A stretch of DNA of 64,000 nucleotides, taken from the NCBI GenBank assembly GCA_905233985.1, contig CAJOFA010000017.1, positions 61,112 through 125,111 on the forward strand, in the 5' to 3' direction. Within the stretch, counting starts at the first letter, position 1. Each line of letters begins with the position of its first letter. A model generated the notes under the pieces. The model was not told the DNA's origin. It saw nothing but the letters and a program-made list of their open reading frames with translations, and searched no databases. Both the position numbers and the translations under genes were made by a program. Shown piece after piece: positions 38,576 through 55,428 of this stretch. This stretch comes from an uncultured Prevotella sp. (GTDB lineage: Bacteria > Bacteroidota > Bacteroidia > Bacteroidales > Bacteroidaceae).

Positions 38576-38620
38576 CAACGTGGATCGTGCTGAATAGATC
38601 GGGATACTCATCAAATGAAA

Positions 38621-38740
38621 TCGAAAACCGAGTCAGCTCCTTCAGTCCATGGCGGGCCACAGGCTCTCACAAGGAGCAGCAGTAATGCCGGTGGATTACA
38701 ACGATTGGAGGGCACTCAAATCTTAGAAATAGGAGTTTTC
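38621..38740 (+). ncRNA. ffs: Probable signal recognition particle RNA (4.5S)
   Basis: A long interrupted hairpin around the conserved domain IV: the 5' strand has GGGCCACAGG, the tip is CTCTCACAAG, and the 3' strand is GAGCAGCAGTAATGCC, which matches the CAGG / GAGCAG symmetric loop and the AGTAA element of SRP RNAs. Supporting pairs further out are AGTCC/GGATT, CTCC/GGAG and GAGT/ACTC (38630-38633 with 38714-38717), and possibly GAAAAC/GTTTTC. Its promoter is strong. The RNA binds Ffh and targets nascent membrane proteins. The ends are estimates; the core is 38630-38717. Confidence 0.7.
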
Positions 38741-38804
38741 ATCACATCATTGGCACGACCCACTTTTTTCTAAATGGAAAGTTAGAAATTAAAACCAGAT
38801 TACC

Positions 38805-39404
38805 ATGTTTTCCGGAATAGTAGAAGAGATGGCTACCGTTGTAGCCTTGCATCAGGACAGGGAGAATATCGACTTTACCCTGAGTTGTCCATTTACCAGC
38901 GAACTGAAGATTGACCAAAGCGTTGCCCACAACGGGGTGTGCCTCACGGTGGTTGACATTCAGGGCGACACCTATACGGTGACGGCCATGCGCGAGACGC
39001 TACAGCGCTCGAACCTTGGACTGCTTAAAGTAGGCGACCATGTGAATGTGGAGCGCTCCATGCTGATGAACGGACGTCTGGACGGGCACATCGTTCAGGG
39101 ACATGTGGACGGTAAGGCGACGTGTACGTCTGTTGAGGATGCCGACGGCAGCAAAATATTCACTTTTGAATATGAGGCAGACCGTGAGATGGCTAAGCGA
39201 GGCTACTTCACGGTGGACAAAGGTTCTGTGACGGTTAACGGTGTGTCACTCACCGTGTGCAATCCTACTGTTAACAGCTTCCAGGTGTCCATCATCCCTT
39301 ACACGCTGGGGCATACGAACTTCTGCGATATCCGTGTAGGAACGGTGGTGAACATTGAATTTGATATTCTCGGGAAATACATCGCAAGACTTCAGGCTCT
39401 CTGA
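38805..39404 (+). CDS. ribE: Riboflavin synthase alpha chain
   Basis: A 199-residue enzyme that dismutates two lumazine molecules to riboflavin. It starts MFSGIVEEMATV, contains the typical VAHNGVCLTVV in the first half and a matching VTVNGVSLTVCN in the second half, reflecting its two-fold repeated barrel. It lies after the SRP RNA; I found no FMN riboswitch in the leader. It is convergent with radA (38 bp between the stops). Cytoplasmic. Confidence 0.95.
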   Translation: MFSGIVEEMATVVALHQDRENIDFTLSCPFTSELKIDQSVAHNGVCLTVVDIQGDTYTVTAMRETLQRSNLGLLKVGDHVNVERSMLMNGRLDGHIVQGHVDGKATCTSVEDADGSKIFTFEYEADREMAKRGYFTVDKGSVTVNGVSLTVCNPTVNSFQVSIIPYTLGHTNFCDIRVGTVVNIEFDILGKYIARLQAL

Positions 39405-39442: not shown

Positions 39443-40828
39443 TTACCCGAACAGGGCACGAAGCGCTTCCTCAACCTTACGGACAGGTACCAGTTCTATA
39501 CTGAACATCTTACGTTCCAGCGCGCTAAGGTTGTGACGCGGAATAATGATATGGGTAAAGCCGAGCTTCTCTGCCTCGGCAATGCGCTGTTCTATGCGCG
39601 CAACAGGACGCACCTCGCCACTCAGACCGACTTCACCACACATGCACCAGTCGCTGTCAATAGGGGTGTCAACGTTGGATGACAACACGGCAGCAATCAC
39701 GCTGAGGTCCATAGCCATGTCGGTCACACGCAGTCCACCGGCGATATTCAGAAACACATCTTTCTGCATCAGCTTAAAGCCCACACGTTTCTCAAGCACA
39801 GCCAGCAACATGTTCAGACGTCGCTGGTCGAATCCTGTAGCAGAACGCTGCGGAGTGCCGTAGGCTGCCGTAGAAACCAATGCTTGTGTCTCCACCAGGA
39901 AGGGACGAACACCCTCAATGGCGGAACTGATGGCAACACCCGAAAGCCCGTCACGGTCTTGTGTCAGTAACAGCTCTGACGGATTGCTCACCTGTCGGAG
40001 ACCTGTCTGCTGCATCTCATAGATACCCAACTCCGATGTGCTGCCAAAGCGGTTCTTCATGCTTCGCAGGATTCGATACATATAATGCTGGTCACCCTCA
40101 AACTGGATGACGGTATCAACGATATGCTCCAGAATCTTCGGACCTGCCAGCGTTCCCTCTTTCGTGATGTGACCGATGAGGATGACGGGAACTCCTGCTG
40201 TCTTGGCAAAGCGCAGTAATGCCGAAGCACATTCACGTACCTGGGCAATGCTTCCTGCACTGGACTCCACGTCCTCGGTGGAAATGGTCTGAATGGAGTC
40301 TATCACTACGAGTTCAGGCGTCGTCTCCTTGATGTGCTCGAAGATGGTCTCTAACGAGTTCTCGCAGAGGATGAGGAAATTGTCATCGGATGGTTTTGCG
40401 TTCAGCCGTTCTGCCCTCATCTTCAACTGATGGGCACTCTCCTCACCGCTGACATAGAGAATACGCTTCTCGTGCATGTTGAGCATGGTCTGCAACAGAA
40501 GTGTGGACTTGCCTATGCCTGGTTCGCCTCCCAGCAACACGATGGAGCCAGGAACAAGACCACCTCCCAGCACACGGTTCAGTTCTGCGTCGTGCATATC
40601 AATGCGAGGGTCATCATGAGCGCTGATGTCACTTAACTTGAGTACTTTGTTACTTCTCAATGCATGACCTGCCGTAGCAGCGGCACTGGAGGCGACTTGC
40701 TGACGTGTGTCTGCCACACGGATTTCCTTAAACGTGTTCCATTGGCCGCAAGCAGGACACTTGCCAACCCACTTCGGAGACTCCTGCCCGCAATTCGAGC
40801 AAACGTATGCTATCTTATCCTTTGCCAT
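39443..40828 (-). CDS. radA: DNA repair protein RadA
   Basis: A 461-residue RecA-like helicase for branch migration. The N-terminal zinc motif YVCSNCGQESPKWVGKCPACGQW, the Walker A LGGEPGIGKSTLLLQ (about residues 97-111), the KNRFGS motif of RadA and the C-terminal Lon-like domain (ITHIIIPRHN) are all visible. It begins eight bases after the regulator gene's stop codon, so it is likely co-transcribed with it. Confidence 0.95.
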   Translation of the reverse strand: MAKDKIAYVCSNCGQESPKWVGKCPACGQWNTFKEIRVADTRQQVASSAAATAGHALRSNKVLKLSDISAHDDPRIDMHDAELNRVLGGGLVPGSIVLLGGEPGIGKSTLLLQTMLNMHEKRILYVSGEESAHQLKMRAERLNAKPSDDNFLILCENSLETIFEHIKETTPELVVIDSIQTISTEDVESSAGSIAQVRECASALLRFAKTAGVPVILIGHITKEGTLAGPKILEHIVDTVIQFEGDQHYMYRILRSMKNRFGSTSELGIYEMQQTGLRQVSNPSELLLTQDRDGLSGVAISSAIEGVRPFLVETQALVSTAAYGTPQRSATGFDQRRLNMLLAVLEKRVGFKLMQKDVFLNIAGGLRVTDMAMDLSVIAAVLSSNVDTPIDSDWCMCGEVGLSGEVRPVARIEQRIAEAEKLGFTHIIIPRHNLSALERKMFSIELVPVRKVEEALRALFG

Positions 40829-40836
40829 GTTTTTTG

Positions 40837-43800
40837 TTAGGTGTTTGGTGTATTCACCGTCATTTTCATCCTACGGTATTCAGTGGGAGACATGCTGGTC
40901 ATGCTCTTGAAAGAATGGGCGAAATAGATGGGATCGTTGAAGCCGGTGCTTTTGACAACATCGGGTACGCTAATACCTATATGACTATCAAACAACAATA
41001 TGGCTTTCTTGATGCGGAACTCTGTGATGAACTCCTTGGGCGACTTCTTGGTCAGCGTTTCTATTTGACTGACGTAAGCCGCACGTCCTAACGAGGACTG
41101 CGCCACCAAGTCATCAATAGTCAGATTGGAATCGGCATAATTGTCTTCAAGCCAGTTCATCATACGCTCAACCAACTGGTAGTCGTCCTTCTTCTCGAAT
41201 GTCATAGAGTCCGCCCCTATCTTCAGCGTACGACGGCGTAAGTTCCGTTTCTTGCGTACTTGCAATACAAAGACGAGAACCAAAAGGAGGACAGTTATCA
41301 CGATAAGATAGCACCATAATGCTGCAGGTGACAGGAACCAATATGGCGGTACCCTGACTTCAATGGTACGCATATCGAACTGGTCAGGGGACTCCAGCAG
41401 GAATGCCTTGACACGGAAGTGGTACACCCCTACCGGCAAATCTTCATAAGTAGCCGTCAGTTGGTTATCGGCATTATGCCAATCCTCGTCGTAACCCTCC
41501 AGCATATACTGATAGAGCACACGATGCTGAAGCTGGTAGTTCAGCGAAGCAAAGCGGAAGGTAAAGCTACTGCTGCGACTGGGCAACTCCACGCTGCTGC
41601 TCTCTGGAACATAATAGTCATACAGATTGTTGAGACGAGGACTGACCAACTGGTCGTTTATCCAGAAATCAGTAATGCGCAGCATGAGTTGAGATGCCGA
41701 GGAATTAACCAGTTTCTTACGGTCAACGAAATAGTAACCGTCAAGTGTACCGAAGAAGATATTGTTGTCAGGCATCGCAAGGGCGGCACACTCTGAGCAC
41801 AAGGTGTCATCGACGCCATCCTGTGTGGAGAAGATGCAGAAAAAACGCTTCTCGGTATCAAACGACACCAGTTCATCCTCCGTAGCAATCCACGCATTAC
41901 CTTGATTGTCAAACGTAAGACTTCTGATTTCGGCCGATGGAAGTCCGTCCTTGGTATCAAAGTTCTCAAACATCCAGTTGCCGTCATCATCGCGGCCAAT
42001 AGTATGAGACAGTCCCCCACCATTAGTACCGACCCACACAGAACCTTTTGCGTCGCAGGCAAGGCAGATGATGTCGGTGCTGCTGATAACATGCTCCGGA
42101 TTGCTGCAAGGCTTGACCTCTTCTATTTGGAATTGACCGTCGTGGCAGGACATCATCAGCAGGCCGTCTGTCGTACCAGCCCATACCTGGTCATCCTTGT
42201 CAATCGTCAGCGTACGAACCTTCAAATAGGAATCCTTCGGATAATTCAGCCCATTGTCCTTATGCTTAAGTCGGAACGTACCGTCCTTCTGCTTCATCAA
42301 CAAATTCACGCCACCGTCATAGGTCGCAATCCAGATGTTGCCCGACTTGTCCTCTACCGTACAATAGGTGTTATTGTTATTCAAACAGTTGGGATCATCG
42401 TCCTTATGCACGTAGGAGTTGAAGGCGTAGCCACCATCGTCGAGCGGTGTAATTACTGTCACTCCGTCACCATTTGAGGATATCCAGTAGTTACCGGCTC
42501 TGTCCACGCTGATGCCGTAGATACTTCCAAAGGGGCGACCATTGTTGTCGCAGTTCAAATCTATGCGTTTCTTATCCTTCGTCATGATGCACAATGTGCT
42601 CATCTTGTTGCCAATGAGCACCAAATCACGTTTCTTGTCGTAACAGAAGGCACGCACTTCATTGATGTTTGAGTCGCTTGCGTCATTGAAGAGTCGCTCA
42701 CGTCCAATGATGCTTTGCAGGATTTCAAGTCTCTCCAGTCCCTTGCGGGCTGTTGATTCCCACAAAACGCCCTCGGACAGTGGGGCAAAAGCATTAACGG
42801 TGTTCAGCAGGTTCCAAATGTTCGACGGGTCGTTATGGAAAAACTCCACCTCATCAGTTTCCCGGTTGTAGTAGCCAAATCCTCCAAGATTCATTGCTAT
42901 CCATAGGATACCGTTTGTTTCCATCATAACGGCCCCATTTACGTCATGCTGGGGAACCAGAACTTTCTGTGTGAAACTCTTGACTTGTCCTGTTGCAGGA
43001 TTCAAGCGCGACACTCCTTGTGCTTCCTGCGAGAACCATACAAGATTCTGACTGTCAACAAACAACGAGGAAATGGGTGTTTGCAAAACAGCTAATGTCT
43101 TAGGCTCCTGCTCAGAGCCGAAGGAGATGAGTTTACCCGAGTCGGTGCCAACATAGACCCGGCCATTGTGGAAGAACAGGTGTCTTGTTATTTCGTCCTC
43201 GCAGACACCGTTTGACTCTAATGTTCCCTCAGAAAGATTCAAGCAGTGAACACCCTTGTCAGTTCCTACCCAAAAGATGTTTTGACTTCCCTCGACAACA
43301 GACAAAGGCTGAAGACCATCAGTCTTAATCAATTGATTGATAACCTTACCGTTCTTATCCAGGTGCATGACATAAATGCCTTGATTGCGGATGAGGGCAA
43401 TAACTTCGCCTGTCGATGTCACGGTAAGGTCATTGTTGGTCTTGAAATTCTCACCGCCCTGGACATCCTCAAAAGCGCTTTGAATCTTATCCGTCCGGCG
43501 GTTCAGCACAAACACGCGGTCGTCATGCATCCGGAGCCAGACATTCTGTTGACGGTCAATCTGTATGGACGAGATACGATTATGAAGCAACGGGACGCCA
43601 CTACGGTTACCCGTTACATAATTATAGAAGTGGTAACCGTCAAAACGTGACAGACCATTCCACGTAGCAAGCCAGATATAGCCATAATCATCACGCTTAA
43701 TGCATGAAATAGCATTGCTGGCCATTCCGTCGTAGGTGGAATAGTGTGACAGCGTAGCCCTCAGTTCCTGTGCACAAACAGTCTGGGAACACATAGTGCT

Positions 43801-43854
43801 CACAGACACAGCAAACAGTAGCTTGAACAACAGACGGTTACACTTCATGGACAT
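40837..43854 (-). CDS. Membrane-spanning propeller regulator with AraC-type DNA-binding domain, no kinase
   Basis: A 1005-residue protein. A signal peptide (about residues 1-28) is followed by periplasmic two-component-regulator propeller repeats (YGYIWLATWNGLSRFDG, GNIWIATYDGGVNLL, GSVWVGTNGGGLSHT), a Y_Y_Y-like domain (YEDLPVGVYHFRVKA), one membrane helix at about 842-864 and a cytoplasmic AraC-type helix-turn-helix (about 900-1000; TIDDLVAQSSLGRAAYVSQIETLTKKSP). Hybrid two-component systems of Bacteroidota have the same sensor and DNA-binding ends, but here the histidine kinase and receiver domains are missing: only about 35 residues separate the helix and the DNA-binding part. It seems to be a one-component transmembrane regulator. 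The ligand is unknown. Confidence 0.88.
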   Translation of the reverse strand: MSMKCNRLLFKLLFAVSVSTMCSQTVCAQELRATLSHYSTYDGMASNAISCIKRDDYGYIWLATWNGLSRFDGYHFYNYVTGNRSGVPLLHNRISSIQIDRQQNVWLRMHDDRVFVLNRRTDKIQSAFEDVQGGENFKTNNDLTVTSTGEVIALIRNQGIYVMHLDKNGKVINQLIKTDGLQPLSVVEGSQNIFWVGTDKGVHCLNLSEGTLESNGVCEDEITRHLFFHNGRVYVGTDSGKLISFGSEQEPKTLAVLQTPISSLFVDSQNLVWFSQEAQGVSRLNPATGQVKSFTQKVLVPQHDVNGAVMMETNGILWIAMNLGGFGYYNRETDEVEFFHNDPSNIWNLLNTVNAFAPLSEGVLWESTARKGLERLEILQSIIGRERLFNDASDSNINEVRAFCYDKKRDLVLIGNKMSTLCIMTKDKKRIDLNCDNNGRPFGSIYGISVDRAGNYWISSNGDGVTVITPLDDGGYAFNSYVHKDDDPNCLNNNNTYCTVEDKSGNIWIATYDGGVNLLMKQKDGTFRLKHKDNGLNYPKDSYLKVRTLTIDKDDQVWAGTTDGLLMMSCHDGQFQIEEVKPCSNPEHVISSTDIICLACDAKGSVWVGTNGGGLSHTIGRDDDGNWMFENFDTKDGLPSAEIRSLTFDNQGNAWIATEDELVSFDTEKRFFCIFSTQDGVDDTLCSECAALAMPDNNIFFGTLDGYYFVDRKKLVNSSASQLMLRITDFWINDQLVSPRLNNLYDYYVPESSSVELPSRSSSFTFRFASLNYQLQHRVLYQYMLEGYDEDWHNADNQLTATYEDLPVGVYHFRVKAFLLESPDQFDMRTIEVRVPPYWFLSPAALWCYLIVITVLLLVLVFVLQVRKKRNLRRRTLKIGADSMTFEKKDDYQLVERMMNWLEDNYADSNLTIDDLVAQSSLGRAAYVSQIETLTKKSPKEFITEFRIKKAILLFDSHIGISVPDVVKSTGFNDPIYFAHSFKSMTSMSPTEYRRMKMTVNTPNT

Positions 43855-43863
43855 TCCGGTGGA

Positions 43864-44715
43864 TTAATGTTTCTTGACCATTCTGCGGGCAGAGACGTTG
43901 AGAAAGGGCATGATTTTATCATAGCCCACCACAAACGTAGGCATACCTGCTGCATAAGCTGCAATCTCGTAGGGCTGATAGACAAATTCCACTCCCTTCT
44001 CCGTCATATAAGGCTCTGCACGGGGATGTGACAGATGGTCAATATCGTCCTCGGTCATTACGCAGCTTTTCAGGTCCTCGTCAGTTATATCAACATGTCC
44101 ATCTTCGCTGAAGTAGTCTTTCAACCCTTCCTTGGTGAGTTGATAGAAACCTTCCTTGTAAAGGTTATGCATCATGGCATAGCCGAAGCGACGACCGTCG
44201 CTCTTGCGGAAAGTGACTCCTTCAGCATACTGCATTCCATGAGCACCGCCTAAATAAGTGTCATTGAACGACATGAATGTAACCACGAGGTCTGTCTCAT
44301 AAACCTTGCGTATCTCGAACGACTCATAGAAATCAATGGACATCATGAACTCGCTGTCCATTTCTGACATCATATTTTTATATTCGTCTCTCAGTTCGGT
44401 CCAAGTCTTATGGGCATAGAAGTTTACCATCTTCTGACCGTCTAAGAGTTCCCCCTCATAGGTACCACCCAGTTTTTCATCAATATACTCTGCAACGGCA
44501 TTCCTCAGCAAAAGGCTGCCATCCGTCGGAAAGTCAATGTGAATATTCACCTGAGCGTGCTGTTTGTCTTGATGAACAACAATACTATCCACAGAAAGAC
44601 TGTCTGCATCGGCTCCCATACCTTGCAAGGGCAGTAACTTCTTTGAAATGGCATTGCAGGAGCAGATGAAAACCATTAACAGAACAAGGATTGAAAGTTT
44701 CTTCATACGCTTCAT
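43864..44715 (-). CDS. DUF3298/RsiV-like lipoprotein
   Basis: A 283-residue protein with a lipoprotein signal ending in FICSC (Cys about residue 20). The central YLGGAHGMQYAEGVTFRKSDGRRFGY is the DUF3298 signature, as in RsiV C-terminal domains. Some of these bind lysozyme or sense the envelope, but no anti-sigma part is present here. It lies just upstream of the membrane regulator gene (nine bases apart), so both may belong to one signalling unit. Confidence 0.8.
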   Translation of the reverse strand: MKRMKKLSILVLLMVFICSCNAISKKLLPLQGMGADADSLSVDSIVVHQDKQHAQVNIHIDFPTDGSLLLRNAVAEYIDEKLGGTYEGELLDGQKMVNFYAHKTWTELRDEYKNMMSEMDSEFMMSIDFYESFEIRKVYETDLVVTFMSFNDTYLGGAHGMQYAEGVTFRKSDGRRFGYAMMHNLYKEGFYQLTKEGLKDYFSEDGHVDITDEDLKSCVMTEDDIDHLSHPRAEPYMTEKGVEFVYQPYEIAAYAAGMPTFVVGYDKIMPFLNVSARRMVKKH

Positions 44716-53807: not shown

Positions 53808-55394
53808 TTATCTTTTGGTAAATTTCAGCGACTTGTTGCCCACCTTCACGATGTAAAGAGCTGCAGGCAAATGAGCCACAGAGATGGTGGTGGTTCCATT
53901 GGAAACAGGGGCTGAAGCAACTTTGACGCCCCGCAGGTCATAGACCACGGCAGACGTGGCATCACCACATCCAGAGAGTTTCAATTCGAAATGAACAGGT
54001 GTCATGAGATTCAGCATGTCGGGTTCACGGGGCGTAGTGATGGCCACATTACCATTCTTGACAAAGAAGGTAACGTAACTGACGCCTGTGCAGTTGATTC
54101 CGGCATGAAGCACGACTTCGAACTTACCATTGTCATCAACATTGGCCAACATCGCCACATTGCTCAACGGCTGCTCCTCGCCTGTATCGGTAACCATATA
54201 CAGTTCTCCATCAAGTGTACCGGGCTCTTCGGACTGGTCGTCAATAGGATAGAAACCACCAGAATTATAACTCAGTCCGCGGGCAAAGCGCACACTACGC
54301 ACCCCGACAGCATTCTGACCGTCACGTGTCAGAACTTCAAAATGTCCATTCTGGTCAACATTGGCCAATAGCTGTACACGGCTGACGGCGATGGAATCTC
54401 CCTGATCGGTAATCATACACCAAGGGCCTTCGCCTTCAGGATAGGCAGGTTGCTCGCCGTTGATGATTTTCTGGAATCCACCCGACGTCATCGTATTACC
54501 GTGGGCAAAGCGCACATAATTGACGCCGGCGACGTTGGCACCATCGGAAGTGATAACTTCAAAGGTTTTGTCGCCATCGACATTGGCAACCATCTGCACA
54601 CGACTCATGGCAATGGAGTCGTTGCGGTCGGTAATCATACACCAAGGATTAGCGGCGTTTGGATCAGCTGGCGTTGAGCCTCCGACAATCGGCTTAAAAC
54701 CTCCTGAAGTTTTCGTATTACCATGAGCAAAGCGCACGAAGGAGACATCGACACGATTATCACCGTCGGAGGTGACAATTTCAAAACGTCCCTGGCCATC
54801 AACATTAGCCAACAACTGCACGCGGCTCATGGCAATAGAGTCATTACGGTCGGTAATCATACACCAAGGATTGGCCCAGTTGGGGTCAGAGGATGACGAG
54901 CCGCCAGTGATAGGTTCGAAACCACCACTATTTTCCGAAGTGCCGCGACCGAAACGAACATTGGTCACACCAACACGGTTGGCTCCGTCGCTGGTAACAA
55001 TCTCGAACTGGTTAGTGCCGTCAACATTCGCCAACAACTGTACACGACTCATGGCAATGGAGTCTCCCTGGTCGGTAATCATACACCACGGCCCTGTTTC
55101 TGTGGAGACAGGCAACTCACCGTCATCAAGAGCCACATAGGAGGACTCATGCTGTTCAAAGGTAATACTGCTCACCCCTACAGCGCCCTGCCCTTCTCTG
55201 ACAACAACCTCAAAGGTTGACTGACCATCAACAGCAACGAGCATACTGACACGTGCCATCTCAATATACTGTCCTTGATCAGTTTTGAGACACCATTGCA
55301 AGTCCTGTCCCCTCGCCTCAAACGAGACAACAAAAAGCATGAATACAGCCCATGCGAAGGAAACAGCCCATACTTTTGGTTTGAAAGTTCCCAT
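53808..55394 (-). CDS. Secreted protein with six ~74-residue tandem repeats and type IX-like sorting tail
   Basis: About 528 residues. After a signal peptide (ending SFEARGQ) come six repeats, each with WCMITDxxDSIAMSRVQLLANVD, FEIVTSDGAN, and VRFAHG elements. Repeats 2 to 5 are nearly identical; the first and sixth are divergent. The C-terminus VYDLRGVKVASAP ... LPAALYIVKVGNKSLKFTKR is a type A sorting domain used for type IX secretion. No known enzyme motif. The ORF track start at a TTG (55400) is replaced by the ATG at 55394. A surface adhesive or cargo role is possible but unproven. Confidence 0.82.
   Translation of the reverse strand: MGTFKPKVWAVSFAWAVFMLFVVSFEARGQDLQWCLKTDQGQYIEMARVSMLVAVDGQSTFEVVVREGQGAVGVSSITFEQHESSYVALDDGELPVSTETGPWCMITDQGDSIAMSRVQLLANVDGTNQFEIVTSDGANRVGVTNVRFGRGTSENSGGFEPITGGSSSSDPNWANPWCMITDRNDSIAMSRVQLLANVDGQGRFEIVTSDGDNRVDVSFVRFAHGNTKTSGGFKPIVGGSTPADPNAANPWCMITDRNDSIAMSRVQMVANVDGDKTFEVITSDGANVAGVNYVRFAHGNTMTSGGFQKIINGEQPAYPEGEGPWCMITDQGDSIAVSRVQLLANVDQNGHFEVLTRDGQNAVGVRSVRFARGLSYNSGGFYPIDDQSEEPGTLDGELYMVTDTGEEQPLSNVAMLANVDDNGKFEVVLHAGINCTGVSYVTFFVKNGNVAITTPREPDMLNLMTPVHFELKLSGCGDATSAVVYDLRGVKVASAPVSNGTTTISVAHLPAALYIVKVGNKSLKFTKR
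54411..55087. repeat. Exact 222-bp period tandem repeats in the secreted protein gene
   Basis: The string AATCATACAC recurs at 54411, 54633, 54855 and 55077, each exactly 222 bp (74 codons) apart. Flanking bases are also largely conserved, so these are recent or gene-converted repeat units. Confidence 0.9.
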
Positions 55395-55428
55395 AAGCAA
55401 ATGGTTTAATTAATACAATAAGATGTTG

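Follow-up and report, generated by a model that had tools for sequence, protein, structure and literature searches.

Introduction

Does a membrane protein that has the periplasmic sensor of a hybrid two-component system, an AraC-type domain at its cytoplasmic end and no kinase between them regulate transcription from the membrane? The question is raised by a gene in the window, by which we mean the whole analysed stretch of 64,000 nucleotides from an uncultured Prevotella sp. The original prediction was that its protein passes a signal across the membrane mechanically, in the manner of ToxR/CadC-like regulators, and binds DNA at the membrane.

Hybrid two-component sensors have the same periplasmic part (PMC3243724). 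The transmembrane one-component regulators form an already known class that is abundant in Bacteroidota and has the Y_Y_Y domain in 7.7% (PMC10269533); SusR-like proteins are its example in Bacteroides, and the DNA-binding domain of SusR was reported to have no similarity to other known ones (PMC3878776). In co-component systems (ToxR/ToxS, VtrA/VtrC) a membrane partner devoid of a DNA-binding domain works together with a DNA-binding one (PMC9214523). In open-licence papers, to which our search was confined, we met no account of a family of this kind losing its DNA-binding domain repeatedly, or of the acidic tail described below.

Results

Architecture of the protein in the window

The gene codes for a true inner-membrane sensor that has no kinase. 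The predicted combination of a propeller, a Y_Y_Y domain, a membrane helix and an AraC domain with neither kinase nor receiver was borne out by Pfam, hydropathy and an AlphaFold model (Table 1). The Pfam search gave no match to HATPase_c, HisKA or Response_reg in this protein at E 0.01, as had been expected, and HTH_18 was matched at residues 931-995 above the cut-off. The model (mean pLDDT 80.6, built on a 19-sequence alignment) includes the propeller strands, the Y_Y_Y domain, a continuous helix over residues 843-877 and seven AraC helices over 889-1000, the latter predicted with fair confidence. By the model and the HTH_18 match, the seven-helix double HTH fold of AraC/XylS is present in the window copy. 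Foldseek placed the hybrid system BT4663 first, with a match to its periplasmic domains over about 835 columns. The link between the membrane and the AraC domain, put at about 35 residues in the original prediction, is slightly shorter, about 21-25.

Table 1. Features of the sensor gene and its protein in the window (positions are those of the window)
Feature	Position	Strand	Evidence
Sensor gene: kinase-less propeller-Y_Y_Y-TM-AraC, 1005 aa	40837..43854	(-)	intact ORF with ATG and stop; domains; fold
N-terminus, signal peptide-like, residues 1-28, MSMKCNRLLFKLLFAVSVSTMCSQTVCAQ	43771..43854	(-)	sequence, hydropathy; helix 4-22 in model
Double beta-propeller, residues about 47-720	41695..43716	(-)	Reg_prop 3.4e-35; model strands; BT4663 match
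Y_Y_Y domain, residues 772-835	41350..41541	(-)	Pfam 1e-11
Single membrane helix, residues about 846-867	41254..41319	(-)	hydropathy 3.11 over 846-864; helix 843-877 in model
Short basic linker, residues 868-888	41191..41253	(-)	sequence; low pLDDT 867-878
AraC-fold domain, partly decayed, residues 889-1000	40855..41190	(-)	HTH_18 4.1e-11; seven helices; 84.6 bits
Recognition helix 1, residues 923-936, GRAAYVSQIETLTK	41047..41088	(-)	net charge +1 vs +3 to +5 in outgroup
Recognition helix 2, residues 974-987, DPIYFAHSFKSMTS	40894..40935	(-)	net charge 0 vs +1 to +3 in outgroup

Genomic context

The sensor gene is separated by 9 nt from the DUF3298 gene upstream of it and by 8 nt from radA downstream; farther upstream are pgk and a GH3 gene. 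All three adjacent genes are on the minus strand (DUF3298 gene 43864-44715, sensor 40837-43854, radA 39443-40828), and their spacing of 8-9 nt suggests that they form one operon in the window genome. In the other loci examined radA is not adjacent to the sensor gene, and no constant linked partner gene was found at the orthologue loci. There is no glycan-utilisation locus beside the sensor gene of the window.

The genome from which the window comes (2.53 Mb, 83% complete) has four Y_Y_Y matches, the window sensor gene included. The others are a full hybrid two-component protein, a propeller-HATPase protein without HisKA and receiver, which ends in EEEIAEAELIED, and a second propeller-AraC protein. 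The latter (L191:2081-4546, contig C25 of genome G000; 821 aa, TTG start) is also one-component; its recognition helices are likewise poor in basic residues, yet its HTH_18 match reaches 58.7 bits.

Orthologues with and without the AraC domain

Among 398 genomes of the genus, 118 matched at 1e-60 or better, mostly with orthologues at 42-55% identity. Further Prevotella records, P. communis E15-14 and Prevotella sp. tc2-28 among them, came from a scan of named genomes, and the removal of duplicates left 112 distinct orthologues; the genomes are a sample, and most of them are metagenome-assembled. Nearly all the genomes that hold an orthologue have a single copy.

The AraC domain is present in 44 orthologues, 67 have no DNA-binding domain, and one (L095) holds only the second half of the domain; the residues aligned to the domain number 108-121 in the 44 and 0-51 in the 67. 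Thus, a membrane helix and a recognisable DNA-binding domain stand in one chain in the window copy and not in 67 of the 112 orthologues. Both states occur in the named genomes: the isolate Prevotella sp. tc2-28 has the AraC-less form and Prevotella communis E15-14 the AraC form. No kinase was found in the 112 orthologues, as judged by length and layout. All frames close with a stop codon and not at a contig edge, and each of the 112 proteins has one late membrane helix and no other. The domain-less orthologues retain the signal peptide, the sensor and the membrane helix; what remains of their cytoplasmic part is 6-23 residues in some and a tail of 31-78 residues in others.

Repeated loss of the domain

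On the maximum likelihood tree of the sensor (815 columns, quick search, SH-aLRT support only) the AraC state changes 12-13 times, and well-supported branches require 8-10 of these changes. The domain is present throughout the outgroup and the basal clade. Sister pairs of unlike state are well supported in four cases (L039/L060, L065/L094, L054/L089 and L045/L114). The arrangement of the domain-less forms in one clade was rejected by the AU test on a 47-row subset (lnL difference 712, p 5.3e-53).

In a tree of AraC domains, those of the family group together in a single clade, separate from 20 domains of paralogues and hybrid systems (support 100/99); hence the domain was inherited and then lost, and its repeated gain from paralogues is ruled out by this tree. 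A close relocated copy was not found in 16 domain-less genomes (best 34-43% identity); the comparison in three AraC-bearing genomes gave 61-77%. We also rejected the splitting of the domain into a neighbouring or distant gene: apart from the half domain of L095 the flanks contain no remnant, and the AraC gene that lies near L108 is unrelated.

The domain was lost many separate times, about ten, while the sensor was retained. Members of the orthologous group can do without the AraC output; what is conserved is the periplasmic sensor with its anchor.

Selection

For the sensor, dN/dS is 0.03-0.10 across 13 pairs of closely related domain-less forms; these forms are under strong purifying selection and hence are not pseudogenes. 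The AraC domain of the basal clade is constrained at least as much as the sensor (dN/dS 0.02-0.06). Judged by identity, the domain falls behind the sensor in conservation in 376 of 378 pairs from the derived clade and in 9 of 10 from the window's clade; this holds for 1 of 27 pairs in the basal clade and for 8 of 78 pairs of paralogues. The pairs share ancestry, and these counts are descriptive and do not represent independent tests. The window copy follows its clade in that its AraC domain has diverged more than its sensor, whereas the other one-component paralogues show the opposite.

Recognition helices

The AraC domains were scored with a profile built from paralogue and hybrid-system (outgroup) domains, so that the scores are informative only as a ranking inside the family: 152-204 bits for the outgroup, 112-128 for the basal members, 84.6 for the window copy and about 69 for the lowest members. 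Both recognition helices of the window copy carry less net positive charge than those of the outgroup (Table 1). Basic residues have likewise disappeared from the recognition helices of most AraC-bearing relatives. In helix 3 of MarA, Trp42, Gln45 and Arg46 contact bases, and functional selected variants retain Arg or Lys at position 46 (PMC3315485). In our alignment the equivalent of Arg46 in the window copy is Ser929; the basal members also have Thr or Asn there. In helix 6, the window copy has His980 at a position occupied by Lys or Arg in 20 of 20 outgroup and 34 of 44 family domains.

Thus, the basic contact residues of helices 3 and 6 are largely lost in the window copy according to its sequence, and loss of charge is an indirect indication. 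Considering this loss, DNA binding by the window copy is doubtful and is probably weak or absent. A ToxR/CadC-like mode is possible, most plausibly for the basal members.

An acidic tail common to two propeller families

A C-terminal end similar to TDEYEIIE is present in 43 of the 112 orthologues (22 with AraC, 20 without, and the half-domain form). Elsewhere, the motif was found in two others among 1659 distinct ends of long ORFs in the DNA collected. The DNA pattern for D[DE]YEIIE occurs at four places in 200 genomes, all of them orthologues, so the acidic motif is typical of this sensor family. Those domain-less forms that carry it are most simply explained as internal deletions that stay in frame. 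The acidic tail is absent from the window copy and its clade.

We rejected the idea that the tail is a general C-terminal tag of Prevotella after searching 120-200 genomes with three DNA patterns. Matches to D[DE]YEIIE and EAVLMD were confined to two sensor families; EAE[ILV]IE also matched unrelated proteins, internally or out of frame.

The second of these families includes the propeller-HATPase protein of the window genome and consists of propeller proteins whose output is a HATPase, nothing or AraC. In the compared set, the HATPase-bearing proteins and 6 of 6 output-less ones end in or near a motif similar to EEAVLMDD; the two AraC-bearing proteins do not have it. Genome-wide, 9 of 9 matches to EAVLMD are at C-termini of this family. 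In five loci an output-less protein adjoins a HATPase-bearing paralogue, and one AraC-bearing protein adjoins a HATPase paralogue. Proteins with the propeller, Y_Y_Y and HATPase_c and without HisKA and receiver (L189:1880-5014 and L216-L225) have an acidic end and are often in tandem with an output-less paralogue; genes resembling a LacI-type regulator and transporters lie near them.

A sensor of the second family is only 22% identical to that of the window protein, and hence the tail common to both families is convergent or was exchanged. Both propeller families thus follow one pattern, in which the output on the cytoplasmic side can be lost and the acidic tail is kept. Strict co-occurrence of the two families, as checked by eye, fails in some of the motif-bearing genomes.

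Discussion

Relation to known systems

The protein resembles hybrid two-component systems such as BT4663 and BT4673 in its periplasmic double propeller and Y_Y_Y domain, one membrane helix and C-terminal AraC fold; it differs from them in that the family has no HisKA, HATPase, receiver or phosphorelay, and most orthologues have a decayed AraC domain or none. With the transmembrane one-component regulators of the ToxR and CadC class it shares the membrane-tethered one-component layout. However, most orthologues do not have the DNA-binding domain that defines this class, and in our family AraC is C-terminal. SusR-like proteins are similar by description (a single membrane protein with a periplasmic sensor and a cytoplasmic DNA-binding part, and no kinase), but the window protein has AraC and no glycan locus adjoins its gene. 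The co-component systems are a possible model for the AraC-less forms; nevertheless, their folds are unrelated and their partner is linked in an operon, whereas in our family the forms with and without AraC are orthologous to each other and have no linked partner.

Thus, what stands of the ToxR/CadC-like reading is that the protein is related to hybrid two-component sensors, is anchored in the membrane without a kinase and has an AraC-type domain on the cytoplasmic side. Binding of DNA at the membrane as its output is not established, given the number of orthologues that have no AraC domain and the reduced charge of the recognition helices in the window copy.

Proposed function and alternatives

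We presume that the orthologous group began as a one-component regulator composed of a double propeller with Y_Y_Y, a membrane helix and AraC. Its AraC output is relaxed in most lineages and was deleted outright on many occasions. By analogy with hybrid two-component sensors, the sensor would bind a periplasmic ligand, probably an oligosaccharide. The signal would be passed through another protein, possibly through association with a further propeller sensor within the membrane; in the relatives with an acidic tail, the tail may instead dock a cytoplasmic partner. The window copy would represent a stage with the AraC domain folded but decayed and with no acidic tail. That the selected function is mainly that of sensor and anchor, the AraC output being vestigial or relaxed and the signal going through another protein, is in our judgement midway between doubt and acceptance.

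The main alternative is a working transmembrane one-component regulator of the ToxR/CadC kind: the ligand would alter the sensor dimer, and its two AraC domains would together bind promoter DNA from the membrane. Such regulators are known as a class (PMC10269533), the AraC fold of the window copy is intact and above the Pfam cut-off, and in the basal members the domain has basic helices and is more conserved than the sensor, with the low dN/dS given above. Against these points, most basic residues are gone from the recognition helices of the window copy, its AraC domain evolves faster than its sensor, and more than half of the orthologues have no such domain; we regard this reading as a serious possibility that we are inclined to doubt. 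The tail suggests a further proposal, which we advance tentatively and consider unlikely as it stands: some propeller sensors of Bacteroidota would signal through an acidic C-terminal peptide of the TDEYEIIE or EEAVLMDD type that docks a shared putative cytoplasmic partner, and the AraC domain of the window would be a vestige of the one-component stage. If true, it would explain the repeated deletion of the AraC or HATPase domain ahead of the tail without loss of the sensor. Tail docking is not a general or sole mechanism, since about 26 domain-less orthologues have almost no cytoplasmic part (only 6-23 residues past the membrane helix, and no acidic tail).

The AraC-less forms could also be co-receptors or brakes that tune propeller proteins bearing AraC, HATPase or a kinase, as ToxS and VtrC do for their partners, with the window protein as a full subunit. 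Co-component systems are known elsewhere (PMC9214523), and the tandems of output-less and HATPase proteins in the second family, like its AraC protein beside a HATPase paralogue, would agree with this; but the absence of a linked partner in the window's family and the nearly universal single copy make it improbable. A component of type IX secretion of the PorZ type, and not a sensor, is hardly credible: the NCBIfam model gives 117 bits for the window protein and 104 for an AraC-less orthologue, and PorZ is among the Foldseek matches, but both scores are far below the 260-bit cut-off (on which we rejected this identity), the family-2 propeller sensors also reach 66 bits, a membrane helix is present, the secretion C-terminal domain is absent, and the sensors of hybrid systems are much better structural matches. 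It is equally hard to believe in an artefact, that is, a hybrid gene that has lost its kinase by error, or in functionless decaying copies. Many of the sequences do come from metagenome-assembled genomes. However, a kinase lost by frameshift or misassembly, which the original prediction had named as the finding that would refute it, does not agree with 43 further orthologues of the same layout and no kinase among them; the stops that end the frames, the low dN/dS of the sensor and the two named genomes (the isolate tc2-28 with the AraC-less form and E15-14 with the AraC form) also contradict it, and for the family it is refuted.

Annotation pipelines label such proteins as transcription regulators by their domains, and the repeated losses in this family warn that the presence of AraC is an unsafe basis for this. 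The family makes it testable how propeller sensors signal with neither a kinase nor a DNA-binding output, and the common acidic tail is a concrete handle (as a bait peptide) toward the partner.

Additional observations

A Bacteroidales-1 RNA (RF01693, a suggested 6S RNA) is found in the window at 38583-38766 on the plus strand (122 bits), directly upstream of ribE (38805-39404), and was present in 8 of 8 orthologue loci scanned. At 78 of 112 loci ribE lies close to the sensor gene. In one domain-less clade (L074, L075, L077, L080, L082, L083, L085 and L138) the sensor gene overlaps the convergent ribE by about 128 nt, and in place of the acidic motif these proteins have a C-terminal tail of the DVDDTPYADVTEVG type read from the antisense strand of the 3' end of ribE, apparently a natural overprint.

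Elsewhere in the window, a 530-aa protein with a TTG start is encoded at 53808-55400 on the minus strand; its only clear domain is a C-terminal sorting signal of type IX secretion.
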